Part shown: one piece after another, positions 29,049 to 58,146 of the stretch
Position numbering within the stretch: position 1 is the stretch's first letter
Layout: every line of letters begins with the position of its first letter
Assembly (NCBI GenBank): GCA_022826905.1
Contig: JAJDUA010000015.1
Location: 1 to 59,495, forward strand
DNA: 59,495 nucleotides
Direction: 5' to 3'
DNA from: Candidatus Dadabacteria bacterium
GTDB lineage: Bacteria; Desulfobacterota_D; UBA1144; Nemesobacterales; Nemesobacteraceae
Program-made: the position numbers and the translations under genes
The notes under the pieces: generated by a model
The model's database searches: none
Told to the model about the DNA's origin: nothing
Seen by the model: only the letters and a program-made list of their open reading frames with translations

Positions 29049-30122
29049 GTGTCTGACTCAAGTTCGATTAAAAGCAGAATTTCTAAGAGCGTAAGACCAA
29101 TATCGGCTTACTCTGTGCCGAGGATCGAGTGCTCAGTGAAGCTTGATGGAAACGAAAGCCCTTACGATCTTGAGGGAGAGGAGAAGCTTGCGCTTTCCGA
29201 ACGGCTGGCAAAGCTTCCGGTAAACCGTTATCCGGACCCCGAAGCTCTGGGCGTAAGAACATCTCTTTCCCACGCTGTAGGCTTTCCTGTGGACGGCATA
29301 CTGCTTGGCAACGGCTCAGATGAGATCATACAGATGATTGTGGAAGTCTTCGGGGGAAAAAGCGGCCGCGTGCTCGTGCCGTCCCCGACTTTCTCAATGT
29401 ACAGAATCACGTCGCTTATTCTGGGAAAACAGGTAACGGAAGTTGAGCTTGATGAAAATTTTGACATAGATCTCGAACAGACACTGGAGACGATTCGTGC
29501 GCAGGACCCTGACATTGTTTTTCTCGCGACTCCGAACAATCCTACTGGGAACTCTTTTTCGGAGGAAAAAGTGCTGGAGATTCTGGAGGCAAGCGGGGGC
29601 GCGGTGGTTGTCGATGAGGCTTACTGCGATTTTTCGAAAAAAAGCTATATTCCACATATAGATAAATATGAAAACCTGCTGGTACTGAGAACAATGTCCA
29701 AGATAGGGTTTGCGGGGGCGAGACTTGGAATGTTCTTTGCACGACCGCAGATCACAGACGAAGTGAACAAGGCGCGTCTTCCCTACAACATAAACTCTTT
29801 TAGTCAGCAGGCGATGTCTTTTGCTCTTGAAACCCCCGAGGTTATCGAACGGAAGATAAATCTTATATTGAGCGAGAGAGAAAGAGTTCGCGCGTCGCTT
29901 GAGCGGATTGAGGAAATACATGTTTATCCAACAGACGCGAATTTTTTCCTGGTGCGGGTTCCGGACTCGGATTTCCTTTTCGAAGAGTTGGTCAAAAACG
30001 ATATTCTGGTCCGTCGCTTCAAGGGGGAGAAACGCCTTGCAAACTGCCTCAGGATCACGGTTGGAAATAGAGAGGAAAACGATCGGCTCACCCAAGCCCT
30101 AGTCGGCATATTTTCTTCCTAA
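29049..30122 (+). CDS. hisC: Histidinol-phosphate aminotransferase
   Basis: A 357-aa class I/II PLP enzyme converting imidazole-acetol phosphate to histidinol phosphate. It shows LLGNGSDEIIQMIVEVFGG, LATPNNPTGNSFS, VVVDEAYCDFS and the PLP Lys in RTMSKIGFAGARLG. The start is GTG. The last codons (GIFSS) lie in the left copy of the 40-bp repeat at 30101-30140 that brackets the AbiE cassette, so the coding end overlaps what looks like the cassette junction. Confidence 0.97.
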   Translation: MSDSSSIKSRISKSVRPISAYSVPRIECSVKLDGNESPYDLEGEEKLALSERLAKLPVNRYPDPEALGVRTSLSHAVGFPVDGILLGNGSDEIIQMIVEVFGGKSGRVLVPSPTFSMYRITSLILGKQVTEVELDENFDIDLEQTLETIRAQDPDIVFLATPNNPTGNSFSEEKVLEILEASGGAVVVDEAYCDFSKKSYIPHIDKYENLLVLRTMSKIGFAGARLGMFFARPQITDEVNKARLPYNINSFSQQAMSFALETPEVIERKINLILSERERVRASLERIEEIHVYPTDANFFLVRVPDSDFLFEELVKNDILVRRFKGEKRLANCLRITVGNREENDRLTQALVGIFSS

Positions 30123-30140
30123 GTAGTTTTTCACGACGAA
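30101..30140. repeat. Left copy of the 40-bp direct repeat flanking the AbiE cassette
   Basis: It matches 32371-32410 at 37 of 40 bases with no gaps; mismatches are at 30106, 30122 and 30127. Read forward it is the 3' end of hisC (IFSS and stop). Read in reverse it spells FVVKNYLGRKYAD and a TAG stop, a second copy of the C terminus of lnt. It is therefore a relic of the convergent hisC-lnt junction. Confidence 0.9.
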
Positions 30141-30177
30141 AATTCTCGCTTAAAACTGTTCCCTACGTACCTGACCA

Positions 30178-30192
30178 CTCCTCTTAGAGGAG
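30178..30192. repeat. Perfect short palindrome CTCCTC-TTA-GAGGAG
   Basis: Six-base arms with a three-base loop in the region upstream of abiEi, 133 bases before its start. It may be a terminator stem for hisC transcripts (no T tract follows) or a protein-binding site. Low certainty. Confidence 0.3.
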
Positions 30193-30240
30193 AAGTTTAT
30201 ACAACAAGTATTCGAATTTTCACCTAAAACGTGATTTGTT

Positions 30241-30255
30241 GCATATATAATATGC
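30241..30255. promoter_or_regulatory. Palindrome over a -10-like TATAAT upstream of abiEi
   Basis: GCATAT-ATA-ATATGC is a perfect inverted repeat, and TATAAT at 30246-30251 falls inside it. AbiEi antitoxins bind inverted repeats in their own promoter and repress it, so an operator covering the -10 is the expected arrangement. No convincing -35 box was found at the right distance. The site is 70 bases before the abiEi start. Confidence 0.4.
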
Positions 30256-30324
30256 TATTCTGCTTGAATATGGATTTCAAATAGTGTATATTCTAATATC
30301 AATAATTCACATTTTTGGTGATTT

Positions 30325-31146
30325 ATGGACAGTAGAGTTATACCACGAAGATCGATACCGCAAGGCAGACGCAACCTTGTAGCCGTGATCAATGAGGCTG
30401 GTGACATTATTCGGATTGAAGATGTCATCTCTGCGCTTCCGGTAAAGAGATCGGATGCCGCCAAGCTGCTTTCACGCTGGGCTAGCCAGGGATGGCTAAG
30501 GCGTGTAGGGACGGGTGCATATGTTGCTGTGCCTCTTGATTCTCTTGAAAGCGAGCGGATTCTGGATGATCCTTGGATACTGGTTCCGGTTCTTTATGCG
30601 CCTGCCTATATTGGTGGGTGGACTGCCGCGGAACACTGGAACCTCACCGAACAACTGTTCCGCCCAATTCTTGTCATGACCATGAAAACAGTGCGTAGAA
30701 AACACGAGATACGAGATGGGGCAGAATTCATGTTGCGCCATATAGAGGAACGGAAATTCTTCGGCACTAAAGCGGTCTGGCGCGGACGGTCCAAAGTTCT
30801 GGTTTCTGACGTTCACCGGACAGTTATTGATATGCTTGATGAACCGTCCAGCGGCGGGGGGAGTCAGCACATAGCAGATTGCCTGGCTGTTTACCTGAAG
30901 TGCCCTGATCGAAATGATGAAATACTAATAGACTACGCGAAAGCGCTTGACAACGGCGCGGTTTTCAAACGGCTAGGTTTCTTAGCTGAAAAATATCCCA
31001 ATACCGAGGTTTTGACCGAAGCCTGTCTGAAGCATATGACAAAAGGGAATGCCAAACTTGATCCCGTATTGAAATGTTCTCGTTTGGTCTCAAAGTGGTG
31101 TCTTCGGGTTCCGTCAAACTGTACAACGGGAGGACGATATGATTAG
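30325..31146 (+). CDS. AbiEi-like type IV antitoxin
   Basis: A 273-aa protein. The N-terminal half contains a winged helix (INEAGDIIRIEDVISALPVKRSDAAKLLSRWASQGWLRRVGTGAYVAVP), followed by the AbiEi middle and C-terminal domain (AYIGGWTAAEHWNLTEQLFRP, KVLVSDVHRTVIDMLDEP). It is the antitoxin of the AbiE system and also represses its own operon. The stop overlaps the toxin start by 8 bases, as is usual. Toxin and antitoxin lie in a cassette bounded by the 40-bp repeats. Confidence 0.92.
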   Translation: MDSRVIPRRSIPQGRRNLVAVINEAGDIIRIEDVISALPVKRSDAAKLLSRWASQGWLRRVGTGAYVAVPLDSLESERILDDPWILVPVLYAPAYIGGWTAAEHWNLTEQLFRPILVMTMKTVRRKHEIRDGAEFMLRHIEERKFFGTKAVWRGRSKVLVSDVHRTVIDMLDEPSSGGGSQHIADCLAVYLKCPDRNDEILIDYAKALDNGAVFKRLGFLAEKYPNTEVLTEACLKHMTKGNAKLDPVLKCSRLVSKWCLRVPSNCTTGGRYD

Positions 31147-32332
31147 CAAGCGTGAGATCATTGATGCGGCGACAATTAAGGGGCTCAATCCCCACATTAT
31201 CGAGAAGGATTATGTTCTTGGCTGGTTGCTGTGGGGAATATGTAATCATGAGATATTAGGTAGAACTTGGCTTTTTAAGGGAGGCACCTGCCTGAAAAAA
31301 TGCTTTTTTGAGACCTACAGGTTTTCCGAAGACCTCGATTTTACTCTTGTTGATCCCTCGCATATCGATGACGGTTTTCTTAAAACCGTGTTTGGGGAGA
31401 TATGCGAACGCGTCTATGAACAGGTCGGTATCGAACTGCCACTGCATTCTCACAAGTTTGACGTTTACCAAAACCCACGTGGCGGTAAATCCTGCCAAGC
31501 CCGGATAGGGTATCAGGGACCTGTGTCGCCACGTGGCAGAAGCATGCCGAGAGTTAAGCTTGACCTCACGGCTGATGAACTCGTGGTTCTGAGTCCGATT
31601 CAGTCACAGGTCTATCATCCTTACAGCGACGCCCCGAGCGGAGGTATCGCCATATGGTCATATGCATACGAGGAGGCGTTCGGCGAAAAGATAAGAGCAC
31701 TTGCCGAACGGGGGCGACCCCGTGATTTGTATGATGTAATCAGCCTGTTTCGCAATCCTGAGGCACGGCCCCCTGCTGCGGTATTAGATGATCTACTTCG
31801 TCAAAAGTGCGAGTTCAAGAATCTTGATTTCCCTGTCTTCGCTCAATTTGAAATTAATAGACCTTTTCTAGAAAGCAGATGGGCGCAGATGTTATCCCAT
31901 CAGTTGCCTGCCTTGCCTCCGTTTGTAACATTCTGGGACGAACTACCTATTTTCTTTGAATGGCTTCACGACGGAACTTTACCGCGGATTCCCGTCGCAT
32001 ATATTGGAGATGAAGGTGAAGAGGCTATACGAGAACGCGTGTTGCGCCTGCCGATTTCCACCGTGACTCAGTCCTATATCGAAATCATCCGTTTTGCCGC
32101 TTCCAATCTGCTTTGCGTGGACCTAGACTACGAAGGAAATACAGACCGCGTTGAACCCTATTCGCTTCGCCGTACTAGTAAGGGCAATGTGATCCTTAGG
32201 GCTTACAATGTGAATAAAAACGGACACAGCAGCTATCTGATCAGCAGTATTAAAGGAGCAAGAGTCACCGGTCAGGTTTTCAAACCCCGTTTCGCAATTG
32301 AATTGACGCCTACCGGTCCAGCGGTTGTTTAG
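31139..32332 (+). CDS. AbiEii-like type IV toxin nucleotidyltransferase with a WYL-like C-terminal tail
   Basis: A 397-aa protein. The nucleotidyltransferase core is clear: LFKGGTCLKKCF (G48, G49, T50) and RFSEDLDFTL (R61, S63, E64, D65, D67), matching the GGTxL and RxSEDxD signature. AbiEii-type enzymes halt translation by modifying tRNA 3' ends. Family members are often nearer 300 residues; here the extra ~70 C-terminal residues (EPYSLRRTSKGNVILRAYNV ... ISSIKGARVTGQVFKPRFAIEL) read like a WYL-type domain. Whether that part senses nucleic acid or ligand is inference. Confidence 0.92.
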   Translation: MISKREIIDAATIKGLNPHIIEKDYVLGWLLWGICNHEILGRTWLFKGGTCLKKCFFETYRFSEDLDFTLVDPSHIDDGFLKTVFGEICERVYEQVGIELPLHSHKFDVYQNPRGGKSCQARIGYQGPVSPRGRSMPRVKLDLTADELVVLSPIQSQVYHPYSDAPSGGIAIWSYAYEEAFGEKIRALAERGRPRDLYDVISLFRNPEARPPAAVLDDLLRQKCEFKNLDFPVFAQFEINRPFLESRWAQMLSHQLPALPPFVTFWDELPIFFEWLHDGTLPRIPVAYIGDEGEEAIRERVLRLPISTVTQSYIEIIRFAASNLLCVDLDYEGNTDRVEPYSLRRTSKGNVILRAYNVNKNGHSSYLISSIKGARVTGQVFKPRFAIELTPTGPAVV

Positions 32333-32368
32333 CTGATATGAATTCAAGACGACGATGGATTGCTGTTG

Positions 32369-33952
32369 TTAGTCGTCATATTTTCTTCCTAGGTAGCTTT
32401 TCACGACGAAGAGAATTGTTGCAGCAAGGGCTATCCACGCGAAGATGTCTCCTACTCTCGAGTAAAGAGTTTCAAGCGAATCAATCAGAACTATTTCTCC
32501 ATTCAGGTTCTCCGTAGTGAAAATGCCCGTGCGGGCCTCTATCTTTCCGGTAGGAGATACGATCGCGCTTACGCCGCTATTTGTTGATCTTACCAGATAA
32601 CGGCGCGTTTCAACTGCCCTCGGAATTGAGAGAAGCAGATGCTGGTAGGGAGCGATGCTCCTTCCGAACCACGCGTCGTTTGTTAGGTTAACCAGGAGGT
32701 TGGCTCCCATTTTCACGTAGTCCCTCGAAATCTTCGCCACTATGTCCTCATAGCATATAAGGGGCCCTATTCTCATATTCTTTCCCGGAATCTCAAGCAC
32801 TTCGAGACCTTCCCCCGGGGTAAGGTCTCCCATCATTGGGAAGACCCTTTTCAGGAACTTAAGCTCCTCGTTTATCCAAGGGAAATATTCGCCCAGAAGA
32901 AAAAGCCCGGTCTTGCTGTAGTGGCCGAGGATATCACTTTGAGGATTGACTAGGAAGGCCGTGTTGTATTTTTTGTGATCCTCTTCGTCCCAGCCGTCCT
33001 CAAGCAGAGCAGGGTCCTGGGTAAAGGAGAGTCCCCCGATGAGGAAGTGCGCTGCGTGCCCCGTCGGCACTACGTCTATTTGGTCTTCAATTCTGTATGA
33101 CGGTTTGTCTTTGGGGAGCCAGTACTGAACCGATGTCTCCGGCCAGATCACGAGGTCTGCCTCCTGAAGTCTTCGTGACATCTCCCTGTGTTTTTCCGTT
33201 ATGATCGGTTCATTGTCGAGGTTTTTTTCCGCGTAATCAAAGTTCGCCTGAACCATCCCGATTTTCACCCGGGGCTCTGTTTTAAGGAAATTCTCAATTT
33301 CGTTTATTCTGAAAGATCCATAGCCGAGCACAATTGCGATTGTGGCAATCGAGATCGCGGGTGCGGCAAGCGCAGGTTTTTTTCTCCGCCGCAAGTCGTG
33401 AACGAGGTAGAAAACCGATATGTTTGCAAAGAACATCAGAAATCCCAGAAAGTTTATCCCGAGCGTATCAACCACCTGTATTACCTTTGGGTAATAGCCT
33501 TGAGAGACTCCTATTCCGTACGGAAAGAGAACCGGGAAGAAAAACTCTGTAACCACCCAGGCAAAAGAGATCATAAGCGCATTTGCGACACTTTTTCTCC
33601 GGCAGAGTCCGAATCTCGATATAAACCAGGTGAAAATTCCGAACTGAAGCGAAGAGTACACGCAGAACAGGAACACGGCCGCCATGCTTGGGACCAAAGG
33701 GATTTCCCCGAACCTGTTGAGAGTCCCGACGAGCCAGTAAAGCGAGACGAGATTCATGGATACCCCGGATATCATGCCCAGTCGAAGTGACTGCAAAGCG
33801 CTTTTTCCCTGAAGCGCCAAAAGCATTGGGGCAAAGCATACCCAGCCCAATATGCCTAGGGGGCTTGAAAAAAGTGATATGGAGAAAAGCACCCCGGATG
33901 CAGCGGCTAGGATTTCATTTCCGGTCGGTCTGGTTATCCGGATCATTCTCAT
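32369..33952 (-). CDS. lnt: Apolipoprotein N-acyltransferase
   Basis: A polytopic membrane enzyme adding the third acyl chain to lipoproteins. The N-terminal half has six or more spans, the C-terminal half is a nitrilase-like domain: VIWPETSVQYW (catalytic Glu), LFLLGEYFPWINEEL, IRIGPLICYEDI (nucleophile Cys) and MGANLLVNLTNDAWFG. The chosen start, ATG at 33952, gives 527 residues; the frame is open to 34027 and overlaps lgt. The last 13 residues (FVVKSYLGRKYDD) lie in the right copy of the 40-bp repeat. lgt is encoded just upstream on the same strand. Confidence 0.93.
   Translation of the reverse strand: MRMIRITRPTGNEILAAASGVLFSISLFSSPLGILGWVCFAPMLLALQGKSALQSLRLGMISGVSMNLVSLYWLVGTLNRFGEIPLVPSMAAVFLFCVYSSLQFGIFTWFISRFGLCRRKSVANALMISFAWVVTEFFFPVLFPYGIGVSQGYYPKVIQVVDTLGINFLGFLMFFANISVFYLVHDLRRRKKPALAAPAISIATIAIVLGYGSFRINEIENFLKTEPRVKIGMVQANFDYAEKNLDNEPIITEKHREMSRRLQEADLVIWPETSVQYWLPKDKPSYRIEDQIDVVPTGHAAHFLIGGLSFTQDPALLEDGWDEEDHKKYNTAFLVNPQSDILGHYSKTGLFLLGEYFPWINEELKFLKRVFPMMGDLTPGEGLEVLEIPGKNMRIGPLICYEDIVAKISRDYVKMGANLLVNLTNDAWFGRSIAPYQHLLLSIPRAVETRRYLVRSTNSGVSAIVSPTGKIEARTGIFTTENLNGEIVLIDSLETLYSRVGDIFAWIALAATILFVVKSYLGRKYDD
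32371..32410. repeat. Right copy of the 40-bp direct repeat flanking the AbiE cassette
   Basis: It is 37/40 identical to 30101-30140. In reverse it holds the functional 3' end of lnt. In the forward frame of hisC it reads VIFSS and a TAG, a second copy of the hisC C terminus. The 2270-bp unit from 30101 to 32370 contains abiEi and abiEii and no integrase. Confidence 0.9.
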
Positions 33953-33974
33953 GCGTAGCGGCGAAATTACGGGT

Positions 33975-34733
33975 TCAAGACGCTTCGTTGTGTTTGCGTA
34001 GAGATGTGTATTTAAGCGCTCCAACAAGAATCAGTGCAAGTGCCATTATCTGCGCTACCGAGAGGCCGTATATCGGGCTTTCAGTGGTAGTTCTTATGAA
34101 CTCGATGAAGAACCTTTCAAGACCTGCGAGTCCCAGATATATGCTGGCGAGCCAGCCGATAGGCCTGTCTTTTTTTCTTATCTTCCACAGTGCTAAGAAC
34201 ACAAGCGACATTATGATCGCTTCATAAATCTGAGTCGGATGAACCGCCTCAAGTGTCGGAGGGGAGCCCTTTGGAAACGACATCCCCCAAGGAAGTGAGC
34301 ATGCGATTCCGTAATCGCATCCAACCAGAAGACAGCCGACCCTTCCAATCGCGTAGGCTATTGCGAGAGCTGGGGCGGTGGCGTCAAGAACTTTCCAGAA
34401 ACTTTCTTTATGCTTTTTTGTTAGTACGAAAAAGGCGAAGAGAGCCAGAAAAAATCCTCCGTAGAAGGTAAGTCCTCCTCTTAGAAGAAGATAGTGCATT
34501 GGGTAGGAGATAAGGTTGCTTAGTGGAACGTTCTGGATCAAGAAAAGAAGCTTGGCCCCGAGTATGCCTCCCACAAGACAGGCAATAAAACCGTGTTCGT
34601 GGAGTTTTCTGGACATTCCTTTTCTTTCAAATTCCATCCCGGAAACCCAGAAAGCGACAAGAAAAGCGACGGCGACCGTCGCCCCGAAGGAGCTAATGTG
34701 AAAATCGCCTATTCTGAAAAGTTCAGGGAACAT
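33975..34733 (-). CDS. lgt: Prolipoprotein diacylglyceryl transferase
   Basis: A 252-aa polytopic membrane enzyme that attaches diacylglycerol to the lipobox Cys. The signature region is visible: HYLLLRGGLTFYGGFFLALFAF, then AIGRVGCLLVGCDYG (family motif with the Arg and Gly-Cys) and HPTQIYEAIIMS. It starts directly after the stop of the 42-aa membrane protein, whose final codons supply GGAGGAGAG as its ribosome binding site. lnt follows downstream, so the first and last step of lipoprotein maturation are in one operon. Confidence 0.96.
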   Translation of the reverse strand: MFPELFRIGDFHISSFGATVAVAFLVAFWVSGMEFERKGMSRKLHEHGFIACLVGGILGAKLLFLIQNVPLSNLISYPMHYLLLRGGLTFYGGFFLALFAFFVLTKKHKESFWKVLDATAPALAIAYAIGRVGCLLVGCDYGIACSLPWGMSFPKGSPPTLEAVHPTQIYEAIIMSLVFLALWKIRKKDRPIGWLASIYLGLAGLERFFIEFIRTTTESPIYGLSVAQIMALALILVGALKYTSLRKHNEAS

Positions 34734-53174: not shown

Positions 53175-54695
53175 TTAACGCGACATCCCTGGGTCAATTA
53201 TTTTGCCCGACAGTCCGGAAGGCTGTATGGGAATCGGATCTCCTGACAATGTCTGGTTTCCGGCTCCGGGATCCCTCTGTGTTGCAGCTCCGGCATCGGG
53301 ACAGGCACCGTTTTCCCTGTAGGCAAGAGCTGCCTTCAGAAGAGCTTCTTCCGGGTCTCCGAGTTGATGGTTAAAGTCTTCCACCGCTTGGCATGTCGGG
53401 ATAAAACCCTTTTCGAAATCCGCTTCACCCTTTGCGTTTACCCCTCTGAAGTTGATAGAAAAATAAACAGTTCCGCAGTTCTCCGCGGGAAGAAAACCGT
53501 AGGGCTTGCCGCACGTAGGGGATCCGATCACGATCACTTCGATGTTGACCCCACGCAGGCTGTTTATTATTGATTCGCTTGCCGAGCATGTGGCAGAGCT
53601 TGTGAGAACGAACAGGCGTTTCAGACCAATGCTGGGAACAGTTAAATCCGTATCGCTGAGTGTCGAGTCAGCTGGAAATTCAAGAGCGAAATTCCAGATT
53701 TCCGAATCGATATAACCCTTTCCGTTTGTCTGAAGCTCTTCAAAGATTTCTCCTTCTTTTTCCGCTCCGGCTACCATTGAAGCGATCATCTGCGCCACAT
53801 AGAGTATTCCCCCGCCATTATAGCGAAGATCAATTATCAGGTCATTAATCCCTCCGTTATCAATAAACCATTGGCCTGTGTTTATAACCGCTTGCGCAGC
53901 TGGAGCGGAATGCTCGTTAAACAGCATATAGCCGATACGGTCTCCATTGGGAGCGGTCAGAATATCTACATTCTGAACCGGTGAGGATTCTACCACCGCG
54001 GATGTCATGGTAACTGTGCGGGGGGTGTCTGATCCGAGGTCAAGAACTGTAAATGTGTGGGTTTCGCCCGCTCTGCGTGGATACAGCCCGTTGTTAAGCA
54101 CATTTATGTTGTTTGAATCCAGAACTTTTTCTCCGTCAATTGCAAGGATTCGCGCGCCGCGGGAAAGATTGACAGCAGACGCCGGTGAATTCGGCTCCGT
54201 ATAGGCGATTCTGATATCCCTGGGCGGTCTGGCCTGCAGGATGACAAACTCGGCACCGTATCCGCTTGAGACGCTTTCTCTTGACTGGAGGTATTGCACA
54301 GTGGGTTGGGTGTAATGAAAATTATCTTTGGGATCTCCCGCCGCGTTTTTTTCAAAGGTTTTCATCAGGTCAAAGTATACGGGGGTGCTGCAGCAGGTAG
54401 GGTCCTGATCCTTGATCTCGTCGTACCAGAAATAAGTCTCATTGCTCCAGGAACGAATCCAGTTATTTTCATCCGCGTAGATGCCGGGAGTGGCAAAATC
54501 TTTATAGTAAGCTTTGTCGGGTTCAGCGCATACGTCCGCAAAAACTGTGCTTGGATAAAACACCGGATCTTCTTTTTCCACAGTTTCATAAGTGTCGCCG
54601 CAGCCGAGAAAGATTGATGCTCCGAGCATGCATACGGCAAGCATACATATTGACGATAATCTGTTAAACGAAAGCCTTTTTTCTGATTTGCGCAA
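53175..54695 (-). CDS. S41-family peptidase lipoprotein
   Basis: A 506-aa protein with a signal and Cys at 32 (GASIFLGCGD). After a conserved ENNWIRSWSNETYFWYDEI module comes a PDZ-like region (DIRIAYTEPNSPASAVNLSRGARILAIDG) and the S41 protease core: IIDLRYNGGG, the nucleophile Ser at 371 in TCSASESI and the Lys at 397 in TCGKPYGF. It would cleave C-terminal or unfolded secreted proteins. The Cys residues next to the Ser and Lys may make a disulfide. The larger paralog follows upstream on the same strand. Confidence 0.88.
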   Translation of the reverse strand: MRKSEKRLSFNRLSSICMLAVCMLGASIFLGCGDTYETVEKEDPVFYPSTVFADVCAEPDKAYYKDFATPGIYADENNWIRSWSNETYFWYDEIKDQDPTCCSTPVYFDLMKTFEKNAAGDPKDNFHYTQPTVQYLQSRESVSSGYGAEFVILQARPPRDIRIAYTEPNSPASAVNLSRGARILAIDGEKVLDSNNINVLNNGLYPRRAGETHTFTVLDLGSDTPRTVTMTSAVVESSPVQNVDILTAPNGDRIGYMLFNEHSAPAAQAVINTGQWFIDNGGINDLIIDLRYNGGGILYVAQMIASMVAGAEKEGEIFEELQTNGKGYIDSEIWNFALEFPADSTLSDTDLTVPSIGLKRLFVLTSSATCSASESIINSLRGVNIEVIVIGSPTCGKPYGFLPAENCGTVYFSINFRGVNAKGEADFEKGFIPTCQAVEDFNHQLGDPEEALLKAALAYRENGACPDAGAATQRDPGAGNQTLSGDPIPIQPSGLSGKIIDPGMSR

Positions 54696-54834
54696 AATGG
54701 TTTCCTCCGTGGAGTGAGTCGGCAGCTGGGATTCTATTAAGCCAGAATCAATATGACTGACAAACAGGATTTATCAACTGACATGCAGGCAGTGATGTTG
54801 CGGACGGGGACGGTTAAGGAGATTTTAAGCCTTA

Positions 54835-57800
54835 TCAGTCAAGAATAAGTCCTGGAAAATCGGAATATGCCGCAGGAGGCGTATTGATAGAAAGTCCCTC
54901 TCCCGGGGAGCTTCTCTGTGCCGCTCCCTGAATCCGAGCGGAGTCCAGGGAAGGGCACACGCCGTCAGTCTGGTAAGCCAGTGCGGTTTTCAGGAGACTT
55001 TCCTGCGGGTTGCCGAGCTGGTGCTCAAAGTCATCATCCGCGACGGAGCAGGTTGGCGAGAATCCGTCATCATAATCAGCCGTTTCGCGGTCGTTTACCA
55101 CTTTTAACTCAATGGAAAAATACGTGGTGCCGCAGTTGTCCCGTGGTATGAAGCCGTAATACTTGCCGCATGTTGAAGAGCCGATCACTATCACGTCAAT
55201 GTCGATTCCGCTCAGACTGTTGATTATCAATTCGCTTGCGGAGCATGTGCTTGAGGTGGTTAGAACGAAAAGCCTTGAGAGATCAAGCATCGGCAGGCTG
55301 GCTGAATTGTAAGATGTGATAAAGGAATAGTAATAATCTTGTTTTTTGTCGTTGTGCTCGATTTTTACGAAGTTTTTACCGTTTCCGGCGGAGCCGGCTA
55401 TCATGGAAGTAATCAGTTGGGCGATACCGAGCGATCCTCCCCCGTTGTAGCGGAGATCAAGTACAAGATCGTCAATCCCGTTTCCCTGAACGAAACTTCT
55501 CACGGCGTTTATAAGAGGCTGTGCAGCAGTGGAAATGTGTCGGTTAAACAGCATATAGCCGATACGGTCTCCGTCGGATGCAGTGATGACTTTCACATTC
55601 TGAACCGGACTTGTCGTTACCGCGCCTGCGGTCATTGTCACGGACCGCTGCTGTGAGGATGCGCCGGGGTCCTTGACCGTGAATGTATAGGTGTCTCCGG
55701 AAGATGGATTAAGGGCCCTGTTCATCGTTTGTATTTCCGCGCTGTTTACGGAATTCACAACGTCAAATCCGTTGATTTCCAGAATCTCCGTGCCGCGAAG
55801 GAGGTTGACGCCCGCCGCGGTGGCGGGGGAGTTCGGTTCCGTACGCGCTATGATTACCTTTCGCGGGGGAGAGGAACTCAATATCTTGAATACGGCGCCG
55901 TATCCCGCCTGAATTCCCTGTTGCGTGAGCCGGTTGTATTCCGCGGTGGATTGTGAGAAGTGGAACCTGTCTTTTGGATTTCCTGAAGAAGTGGTTTGCT
56001 TCGTTTTCATCAGGGTAAAGTATGCGGGCGTAGTGCAGCATGCCGGATCCCTGTCCTCAATCTCATCATACCAGAGATAGATTTCGTGGCTCCAGGAGCG
56101 AAGCCAGTTATTCTCGTCCGTGCGTGTGCCCTGAACAGTCGCACCCTTGTTGTAGGCCCCGGCGGGATTGGCGCAGGAGTGACGAAAATTCTCACTGGGG
56201 CAGAAAACGTCTTCTTTCCAGGGGCTGTCGATAGTGGCGCAGGGGTCGGGCTTAGGGAGGGGGTCCTCAATGGAGAACTCCGCCAGACTGTCGGTTTTGC
56301 CGGCTCCGCCGCCGAGGCCCGAATACACAAGAGTGCCGAGGCCGATATTCACCGTTTCCGGGGTGCTCTCCGCAATGCTGTCCGTTGATGCCGTCAGCGT
56401 CATCGCGGCTACGGTTGCTGTGGTGCCCGAGTTCGGGCCGGTGAAGACGACTCGCGCGCTTGAGCTGTTGAGGTTGGCATAGGTTATTCCCGTGGCGGCG
56501 GTACTCGCCAGAGTGTAGTCCGTGTTCTGTGTGGCCGTACCGGCGAAGGTCAGGGGAACGGTGAGAGTTTCGCCTCGCTCAAGCCCTCTGCCCAGTGTGA
56601 TGGTGATTGCCTTCGTTGATCCCTCCGTCACGTTGCCTGCCGCACCGGCCAGTCTCACCGTTGTGGCGTCATTGTCGTTCACCGTAACCGAGTGCGAGCC
56701 CGTTGAACCCACCGTATAGCCGCTGCCGTTGTTCACGGTCACCATCACCGGACCGTTCGGCTCGTCGTTTGTGTCTCCTGTGGTCGCCACGGTGAAGCTG
56801 TGCGTACCTCTCGTAGCGGGAATCGTCACAGTCCGGGATCCCTGACCCAAAGACCCGACGAAATCACTGTTCGGTGCGTCCGTCACGGTTACCTTGACGT
56901 CGAGATCATTACCCGGAGCGGGGTTTGCGGTCAGGATAAAACTTGCCGCCGTACCTTCCGTAACCGAAGTGCCTCCCGAAATGGTAATCATCGGACGCGG
57001 GACAGAGTCATTATCTGCAATGACAATCTGTCCGTTGCCTGCGATTGAACTTTTAGTTCCGTCACCGAGATTGGCAGCAGTCAGTTTCAGACCGTTGCCG
57101 GTTGAAGACGGTGGAATGGACACCGTCACGGTTCTGTCCTTGGCATCCTGATCTCGCGCGGCGGTGAGTGTGATTGTCACTGTAGCGGCGCTGGTGCCGG
57201 AACTCGGGCCGGCAAATGTCACGGCGGCGTTGGAGTTGGCGAGGTTTGTACAGCTTACGCCTCTGGGCGGAGAAACTGGACAAGTCAGGGTAAAGTCAGT
57301 ACCCACGGAACCTCCGGTGAACTGCAAGGGGACCTTCAGAGTTTCCCCTTTCACGAGTCCTCGGCTCAGCGTAAGCGTTATTGATGCCGTATTGGTTCCG
57401 CTGCCTTCTTCCGCGCTTGCGTCCGGCGTGGCAAGCGTCACAGTGGTAGGGTCATTGTCATTTACCGTAACCGAGTGCGAGCTCGCTGAACCTACCGTAT
57501 AGCCGCTGCCATTGTTCACGGTCACCATCACCGGACCGTTCGGCTCGTCGTCTGTGTCTGCTGTGGTTGCCACGGTGAAGCTGTGCGTACCTCTCGTAGC
57601 GGGAATCGTCACAGTCCGGGATCCCTGACCCAAAGACCCGACGAAATCACTGTTCGGTGCGTCCGTCACGGTTACCTTGACGTCCAGAGGAGCGCTAGGA
57701 GCGGGGTTTGCGGTCAGTATAAAACTTGCCGCCGTACCTTCCGTAACCGAAGTGCCGCCCGAAATGGTAACGACCGGTTCGGCAGTTGTGATTGAGTCAG

Positions 57801-58146
57801 GAGGCGTGTTGGTAGTTGGAGGTGAGTTGGTAATCGGAGGCGTGTTGGTAGTTGAAGGCGGGCTTGTGGTCGGAGGTGGACTGGTAGTTGGAGGCGGACT
57901 AGTGGTCGGAGGCGGACTGGTAGTCGGGGGTGGGCTGGTAATCGGAGGCGTGTTAGTGGTCGGGGATGAATCGGTAGTAGGAGGCGGGCTTTTCTCTGAG
58001 CCTTCCGTCCCTCCGCAGCCTGCGGAACCCAGGACGCTTGCCAGAATCAGAAATATCCCAAGAAAACCCGGAGCGAACAGATGTCTTAAGCGACTTTTCC
58101 TTTTTCTGAGAGCAGAATGCCTGTCAGATGGGTCAGATTTCCTCAT
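54835..58146 (-). CDS. Large S41 peptidase lipoprotein with Calx-beta-like repeats
   Basis: An 1103-aa protein with a lipoprotein-type signal (Cys 44 in GSAGCGG) and AGAGG seven bases before the ATG. Residues 53-116 are a Thr/Pro linker. Then come two pairs of Calx-beta-like domains: 125-232 and 233-384, then 386-493 and 494-628. The second pair is a duplicate of the first. From ~640 the paralogous module ENNWLRSWSHEIYLWYDEI, a PDZ-like region and an S41 core (LDLRYNGGG, Ser 969 in TCSASE, Lys 995 in TCGKYYGF). It may be a cell-surface protease whose Ca-binding arm holds or binds targets; that is inference. Confidence 0.85.
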   Translation of the reverse strand: MRKSDPSDRHSALRKRKSRLRHLFAPGFLGIFLILASVLGSAGCGGTEGSEKSPPPTTDSSPTTNTPPITSPPPTTSPPPTTSPPPTTSPPPTTSPPSTTNTPPITNSPPTTNTPPDSITTAEPVVTISGGTSVTEGTAASFILTANPAPSAPLDVKVTVTDAPNSDFVGSLGQGSRTVTIPATRGTHSFTVATTADTDDEPNGPVMVTVNNGSGYTVGSASSHSVTVNDNDPTTVTLATPDASAEEGSGTNTASITLTLSRGLVKGETLKVPLQFTGGSVGTDFTLTCPVSPPRGVSCTNLANSNAAVTFAGPSSGTSAATVTITLTAARDQDAKDRTVTVSIPPSSTGNGLKLTAANLGDGTKSSIAGNGQIVIADNDSVPRPMITISGGTSVTEGTAASFILTANPAPGNDLDVKVTVTDAPNSDFVGSLGQGSRTVTIPATRGTHSFTVATTGDTNDEPNGPVMVTVNNGSGYTVGSTGSHSVTVNDNDATTVRLAGAAGNVTEGSTKAITITLGRGLERGETLTVPLTFAGTATQNTDYTLASTAATGITYANLNSSSARVVFTGPNSGTTATVAAMTLTASTDSIAESTPETVNIGLGTLVYSGLGGGAGKTDSLAEFSIEDPLPKPDPCATIDSPWKEDVFCPSENFRHSCANPAGAYNKGATVQGTRTDENNWLRSWSHEIYLWYDEIEDRDPACCTTPAYFTLMKTKQTTSSGNPKDRFHFSQSTAEYNRLTQQGIQAGYGAVFKILSSSPPRKVIIARTEPNSPATAAGVNLLRGTEILEINGFDVVNSVNSAEIQTMNRALNPSSGDTYTFTVKDPGASSQQRSVTMTAGAVTTSPVQNVKVITASDGDRIGYMLFNRHISTAAQPLINAVRSFVQGNGIDDLVLDLRYNGGGSLGIAQLITSMIAGSAGNGKNFVKIEHNDKKQDYYYSFITSYNSASLPMLDLSRLFVLTTSSTCSASELIINSLSGIDIDVIVIGSSTCGKYYGFIPRDNCGTTYFSIELKVVNDRETADYDDGFSPTCSVADDDFEHQLGNPQESLLKTALAYQTDGVCPSLDSARIQGAAQRSSPGEGLSINTPPAAYSDFPGLILD
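56668..56987. repeat. Intragenic 320-bp direct repeat, copy 1
   Basis: It matches 57451-57770 with about 19 mismatches and no gaps (counted by eye), and the 116 bases at 56786-56901 are identical. It encodes the third Calx-beta-like domain. Confidence 0.9.
57451..57770. repeat. Intragenic 320-bp direct repeat, copy 2
   Basis: The partner of 56668-56987, offset 783 bp (261 codons, so in frame). It encodes the first Calx-beta-like domain. The near-identity suggests recent duplication or gene conversion. Confidence 0.9.
57799..57990. repeat. 18-bp coding minisatellite for a Thr/Pro linker
   Basis: The minus-strand codons spell variations of TTSPPP and TTNTPP, a six-residue period (18 bp) over about ten units. 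The most regular part encodes SPPPTTSPPPTTSPPPTTSP. Such linkers are often length-variable between strains. It is not a CRISPR array: the units are contiguous, coding and have no spacers. Confidence 0.85.

Follow-up and report, generated by a model that had tools for sequence, protein, structure and literature searches.

An AbiE toxin-antitoxin cassette between duplicated ends of hisC and lnt in Candidatus Dadabacteria resembles an insertion with long target duplication

To our knowledge, the movement of small toxin-antitoxin and defence modules in the absence of an integrase or transposase is little understood. The question is raised by a stretch of 59,495 nucleotides (nt) of contig JAJDUA010000015.1 from a Candidatus Dadabacteria bacterium, hereafter the window. 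Here two genes, abiEi and abiEii, separate hisC, which follows hisD on the plus strand, from lnt, which like lgt is on the minus strand; they are flanked by a direct repeat built from the ends of hisC and lnt. The unit is a predicted AbiE type IV toxin-antitoxin cassette of 2.2 kilobases (kb), with a putative role in defence. On balance we think it probable that the cassette entered the overlap of the 3′ ends of hisC and lnt by insertion with long target duplication and was then spread by homologous recombination. The case looks like a known but little-studied insertion route for defence genes that lack an integrase of their own. Moreover, a single genus offers alleles of different age, empty sites and scars at several loci, which makes the question testable.

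The repeat is 41 nt long, its two copies are identical at 38/41 positions and they are spaced 2270 nt apart (Table 1). The expected number of such matches in 59.5 kb of random sequence with equal base frequencies is ~1e-10 and therefore the repeat is not a product of chance. The left copy takes in the last 23 nt of hisC up to its stop codon, and on the minus strand it carries an idle lnt end reading FVVKNYLGRKYAD followed by a stop. On the minus strand of the right copy lies the functional lnt end, reading FVVKSYLGRKYDD followed by a stop, and this copy also contains an idle duplicate of the hisC end. The two AbiE open reading frames (ORFs) fill the unit, leaving it without an integrase or transposase, and no inverted repeat of at least 16 nt pairs its ends. 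An earlier, sequence-only reading of the window had described a repeat of 40 nt, which lies inside the 41 nt, encoding the ends of hisC and lnt on opposite strands around the AbiE genes. It had also proposed that a small defence unit without an integrase entered the overlapping junction, with both ends rebuilt. Both statements are borne out. The right copy starts at the lnt stop codon, beyond which no coding constraint acts, and the original duplication was thus at least 41 nt long; a longer one may have been trimmed to the limit set by that constraint. The same exact start at the stop codon also suits an explanation by survivorship, in which a gene landing in the overlap must duplicate the overlap or harm a neighbour, such that a random illegitimate insertion, followed by allele exchange, would leave the same picture.

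We compared 13 genomes of one Candidatus Dadabacteria genus (G000 to G012, where G000 is the genome of the window) together with G013, from another genus of the same family; G-labels denote genomes and L-labels loci. The empty sites that the sequence-only reading had anticipated are common, with 8/13 genomes (G003–G008, G010 and G011) carrying a single-copy hisC/lnt overlap and no insert. AbiE lies between two repeat copies in 3/13 (G000, G002 and G012), and in all three the duplicated core is this same junction. In G001, AbiE follows hisC on a contig that stops within AbiEii, giving 4/13 genomes with AbiE at this site. The remaining genome, G009, has an insert of ~0.3 kb without AbiE; the repeat is decayed to the left of it and clear to the right. 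The contents of the junction in the 13 genomes are thus AbiE alleles, nothing or the 0.3-kb insert. The hisC and lnt matches of G013 overlap too; we therefore take the empty state as ancestral and the AbiE insertion as derived. Could the duplication be an error of assembly or binning, which the sequence-only reading had listed as a refutation? The genomes appear to be metagenome-assembled. However, the copies differ at 3/41 positions, both lie well within contigs, and G002 and G012 have the same structure with diverged repeats, and we consider such an error very improbable.

The insert of G009 (L012 1204–1500) comprises ~300 nt without an evident long ORF, holds the hisC and lnt ends apart and is possibly a decayed insertion. 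It was rejected as an AbiE remnant, as its significant matches were limited to the hisC end and the repeat.

The cassettes at hisC/lnt have a history of their own, decoupled from that of their hosts. Between G000 and G002 the synonymous divergence (dS) of the two cassette genes (0.11 and 0.15) is far below that of hisD, hisC, lnt and lgt (0.29–0.36), whereas between G000 and G012 it is far above that of the flanking genes (0.65 and 0.72 vs 0.23–0.41), and it is from this that we conclude decoupling. In an rpoB tree the empty G008, G010 and G011 cluster with the occupied G012 (100/100), and placing the four occupied genomes together in one clade is rejected. Moreover, when hisD-hisC of G012 is aligned with its three sisters, there are 41/303 differences in the last columns vs 37/2120 before (permutation p = 0.0005), and 35/261 in the hisC tail when the repeat is excluded. 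This indicates that G012 has a foreign hisC 3′ tract of ~300 nt beside its cassette, and that homologous exchange probably carried the hisC tail in.

Under insertion with long target duplication, the founding event would be a recombination anchored in short homology, homologous on one side and illegitimate on the other, with no integrase taking part. This insertion would duplicate the junction, leaving each neighbour an intact end. With duplicates of a core-gene end on both sides, the cassette could then be lost, stacked or transferred by ordinary homologous recombination, because congeners have the same gene end. By extension, AbiE modules may form a class of recombinase-free mobile cassettes, each inserting with a long duplication of a core-gene end, for which the copied end is a portable homology site for excision, stacking and interspecies transfer, although we offer this wider idea only tentatively.

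Table 1. Features of the hisC/lnt locus (positions in the window)
Feature	Position	Strand	Evidence and remarks
hisC (aminotransferase class I/II)	29049..30122	+	ORF; Pfam PF00155 1.3e-44
Left repeat copy: functional hisC end and idle lnt end (minus strand)	30100..30140		
Cassette leader, AT-rich (31% GC), presumed abiEi promoter and operator	30141..30324		
abiEi, predicted antitoxin/regulator of type IV toxin-antitoxin pair	30325..31146	+	PADLOC AbiEi PDLC02271 3e-119
abiEii, predicted nucleotidyltransferase toxin	31139..32332	+	Pfam PF08843 8.1e-35; PADLOC PDLC02317 7e-176
Right spacer, 37 nt	32333..32369		38% vs right spacer of G012 cassette in alignment, i.e. unlike
Right repeat copy: functional lnt end (minus strand) and idle hisC end	32370..32410		
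lnt (apolipoprotein N-acyltransferase)	32369..34027	-	Pfam CN_hydrolase and LNT_N; stop codon 32371-32369

The two cassette genes overlap by 8 nt and are bicistronic. AbiEi had no Pfam match at 0.001. AbiEii has the motifs FKGGT and SEDLDF, the columns of which are invariant in three homologues, and its GG and DxD residues resemble those mutated in the work described in part of PMC3985639, a correspondence drawn from the motifs. The leader can be aligned among four cassettes, and within L003–L015 the whole cassette matched only L003, L004 and L009. The name hisC comes from the position of the gene after hisD, by eye, and hisD and lgt were likewise named by eye. A terminator inside the repeat was considered and dropped, as positions 29900–32600 hold 4 terminator-like sites vs 2.9 in shuffles, none of them in the repeat. 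An exact 30-nt repeat at 53916 and 55543, tried as a second cassette, is unrelated and falls in two paralogous protease-like genes (by eye). These genes are adjacent (53175–58146, S41-like by eye), and the second has long internal repeats of 341 nt (56647–56987 and 57430–57770).

Similar scars are found at other sites. Upstream of gyrB, G000 has a second AbiE pair with a copy of the gyrB leader on each side (46 nt aligned). Past the second leader, its DNA aligns with that directly after the one leader that G002 and G003 have. The third pair is flanked on one side by the intact leader and start of an EF-hand-like gene (by eye) and on the other by a partial copy of them (54 nt aligned); the eight relatives checked have this leader in one copy. 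The fourth pair, again in G000, is enclosed by two 100-nt units. At this site G005 has one unit, 357 nt of the left flank of G000 and ~56 nt of its right flank before other DNA begins, with no match to the intervening AbiE of G000. In G002 (L325 383–8058) one gene 3′ end is present three times, around two different defence systems. Copies one and two enclose a Prok-E2, ThiF, JAB and patatin-domain protein (E1-E2/JAB) and its partner, which is metallo-beta-lactamase-like but under the Pfam cut-off. Copies two and three enclose an AbiE pair and a 132-nt fragment of a permease gene. The fragment that makes up the tripled end has no Pfam match, and we read it as part of a peptide-binding protein gene from its peptide and its operon neighbours. 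In G011 this end is present once; after it come the Fic-gene DNA located past copy three in G002 and a further gene. A cassette ~91% identical to this AbiE pair of G002 lies elsewhere, upstream of a permease gene, in G011 and G010, and in G011 it sits behind a fragment of that same permease gene. Single-copy relatives free of the cassette are therefore available at three further AbiE sites, namely gyrB (G002 and G003), the 100-nt unit (G005) and the gene end (G011). By site the repeats measure 41, 46, 54, 100 and 161–258 nt, with a range of 32–258 nt over six sites. The gyrB leader, the 100-nt unit and the G002 gene end were duplicated where we see no gene overlap that would force it, which argues against survivorship. 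Insertion at the 3′ end of a protein gene, which the sequence-only reading had suggested, holds at hisC/lnt but fails as a general rule, given that the leaders of gyrB and of the EF-hand-like gene are copied too.

The gyrB-dcd interval (L087 2743–5403, with 12 relatives) is an insertion hotspot in its own right. It contains AbiE, a STAS-domain gene, a decarboxylase-like gene, large genes or nothing (all by eye except STAS). The large genes of G001 resemble parts of BREX by eye.

We next set the frequency of such scars at AbiE loci against controls. A locus was called bracketed if a direct repeat of at least 25 nt and at least 85% identity lay no more than 1.5 kb from it on each side. By this criterion 8/31 AbiE loci are bracketed vs 1/38 PIN/ParE loci (Fisher p = 0.0085), although the eight represent six sites, hisC/lnt being counted three times. 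The AbiE count uses 31/39 AbiEii matches, the other 8 having been dropped as contig-edge cases, as fragments or because no wide locus had been taken for them, and the PIN/ParE control uses 38/45 loci, 7 with cut flanks having been dropped. With mock 2-kb blocks, a repeat was found around 6/11 AbiE loci, 3 of which are hisC/lnt (L092 was skipped), vs 5/3882 mock positions outside AbiE. No bracketing repeat was found in this test at the nadE/birA locus of G007 and G011, nor at L089, L093 and L099; L089 and L099 show short or weak repeats around larger islands. In other phyla the proportion was 5/66 AbiE loci vs 8/1681 mocks. Here, 11 of 80 loci were left out beforehand (9 with short flanks and the 2 records from Dadabacteria) and lack of room removed another 3; L169 and L170, where the repeats are possibly dispersed or longer, carry weak weight. 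All p values are rough, as AbiE pairs are longer than the control modules, mock positions overlap one another and related genomes are non-independent. The scar is thus enriched at AbiE but is not exclusive to it. Survivorship gains from the few non-AbiE inserts with similar scars, and AbiE genes may simply be young insertions with fresher scars; it does not account for the more frequent bracketing of AbiE than of PIN/ParE, and taking both sides together we hold it to be quite unlikely.

Two of the non-AbiE cases deserve a description. In G007 (L243 5649–7930) the genes lie between 209-nt direct repeats, and in G008 (L245 2836–4575) they lie between 323-nt direct repeats that copy the 3′ end of a transporter-like gene.

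A different account is site-specific integration, with the unit as a degenerate or satellite integrative element whose attachment (att) core is the hisC/lnt junction, moved by a tyrosine recombinase that acts in trans or has since been lost. The geometry is that of an island that restores a gene end, and the same site is used in three genomes. The right copies of G000, G002 and G009 encode a YDD end and the 8 empty sites YAD, and the YDD copies could be attP-derived (3/4 visible right copies vs 0/8 empty sites; Fisher p = 0.018, uncorrected for relatedness). Moreover, one AbiE pair from another phylum is bracketed by a 42-nt repeat that resembles the 3′ half of a tRNA by eye, although ARAGORN found no tRNA there. 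Against this, the unit has no integrase, and no word of more than 8 nt is common to the repeats of the six sites; a single site-specific enzyme is therefore disfavoured. Each genome has two strong PF00589 matches and 0–2 weaker ones, none of them on the contig of the window, in a search confined to tyrosine recombinases. The two strong matches are presumably Xer proteins. The copied 5′ leaders would be atypical att sites, as would the fragment from the middle of a permease gene, and the foreign hisC tract of G012 is likewise at odds with site-specific integration. Of the two modes of movement put forward in the sequence-only reading, the repeat- or homology-mediated one fits, G012 and its foreign tract included. 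The site-specific one is not supported on account of the missing motif, repeats that vary from 32 to 258 nt and the PF00589 pattern, and we consider it unlikely.

The tRNA-like repeat just mentioned (L117 2515–2556 and 5335–5376) surrounds an AbiE pair in a deltaproteobacterial metagenome-assembled genome, where no complete tRNA gene was found.

Several observations nevertheless weigh against insertion with long target duplication followed by homologous spread. No junction has been seen forming, and RecA-type crossing-over is efficient over stretches longer than 41 nt. ComEC is part of the usual uptake route in transformation. A search for it (PF03772) was positive in 0/13 genomes of the genus and in 10/14 control genomes, and hence canonical natural transformation does not appear to be the obvious route. 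By our criterion 23/31 AbiE loci have no bracketing repeat, and the excess at AbiE may in part be an effect of age, since toxin-antitoxin genes are young insertions too. Nor is the scar specific to AbiE, as other cargo has similar ones in G005, G007 and G008/G010. Several AbiE insertions at the sites described above have a single copy: G011 and G012 carry AbiE at gyrB with one leader copy, G011 carries a related AbiE at the EF-hand-like gene with a single leader copy, and in G002 the AbiE of the 100-nt site is accompanied by just one unit. G005 and G011, the empty relatives for the 100-nt unit and the gene end, have other accessory DNA nearby. In parts of PMC4978471, a Helicobacter restriction-modification (RM) system is treated as a possible site-specific insertion with long target duplication. 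At hisC/lnt itself the right copy of G012 is of the native type (YAD), unlike those of G000, G002 and G009. Lastly, the edges of the exchange between G000 and G002 are blurred, as the windows beside the cassette are intermediate between the cassette and the far flanks (63/313, 57/468 and 239/821 synonymous differences).

Three known systems invite comparison. Integrase-borne islands restore the 3′ end of a gene at tRNA genes. Parts of PMC8409611 place such islands at trmE and dusA also. The window unit is like them in that a direct repeat rebuilds a gene end and the cargo is defence; it is unlike them in lacking an integrase and a common att word, in the variable length of its repeats and in the homologous tract beside one insert. 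The minimal mobile element of Neisseria (MME; Saunders and Snyder 2002), in the definition that PMC3898611 gives, is similar in that different whole-gene cassettes lie between two conserved genes by strain and flank-gene homologous recombination is in evidence, although here that signal is seen in G012 only. Target duplication, the hallmark here, is unmentioned in that definition, and ComEC was not found in the 13 genomes.

Closest is the route that we favour. Insertion with long target duplication has reportedly been described for RM systems by Nobusato et al. 2000 (Gene 259:99) and Furuta et al. 2010 (NAR 38:2428). It is cited or treated in parts of PMC3874152, PMC3031569, PMC1643837 and PMC4978471. 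According to a passage of the first, some RM systems have long and variable target duplications, of the order of 100 bp, and are apparently mobile elements themselves. Judged by titles and abstract openings, the literature on AbiE or toxin-antitoxin systems with direct repeats and insertion contained nothing on this arrangement, and among the matches listed for pairings of toxin-antitoxin systems, AbiE and long target duplication, none contained the last of these. In excerpts of a toxin-antitoxin review (PMC2654758) the phrase is confined to the title of Nobusato 2000, a reference given for RM systems that are said to share the apparent mobility of toxin-antitoxin systems. The likeness lies in a small addictive defence unit that apparently moves with no known mobile element, evident from comparison of related genomes, with long and variable target repeats, empty single-copy relatives and no recombinase. 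However, the cargo here is AbiE and the host is Dadabacteria; the repeat of the window is shorter (41 nt vs ~100 bp in those passages) and lies in overlapping convergent gene ends, and one site has three gene-end copies around two defence systems. Therefore, as the cases described are RM systems and the cargo here is AbiE, we regard the window unit as a variant of insertion with long target duplication and not a plain member. As such it would extend the RM observation to AbiE, and it suggests that the same scar be searched for in defence islands generally.

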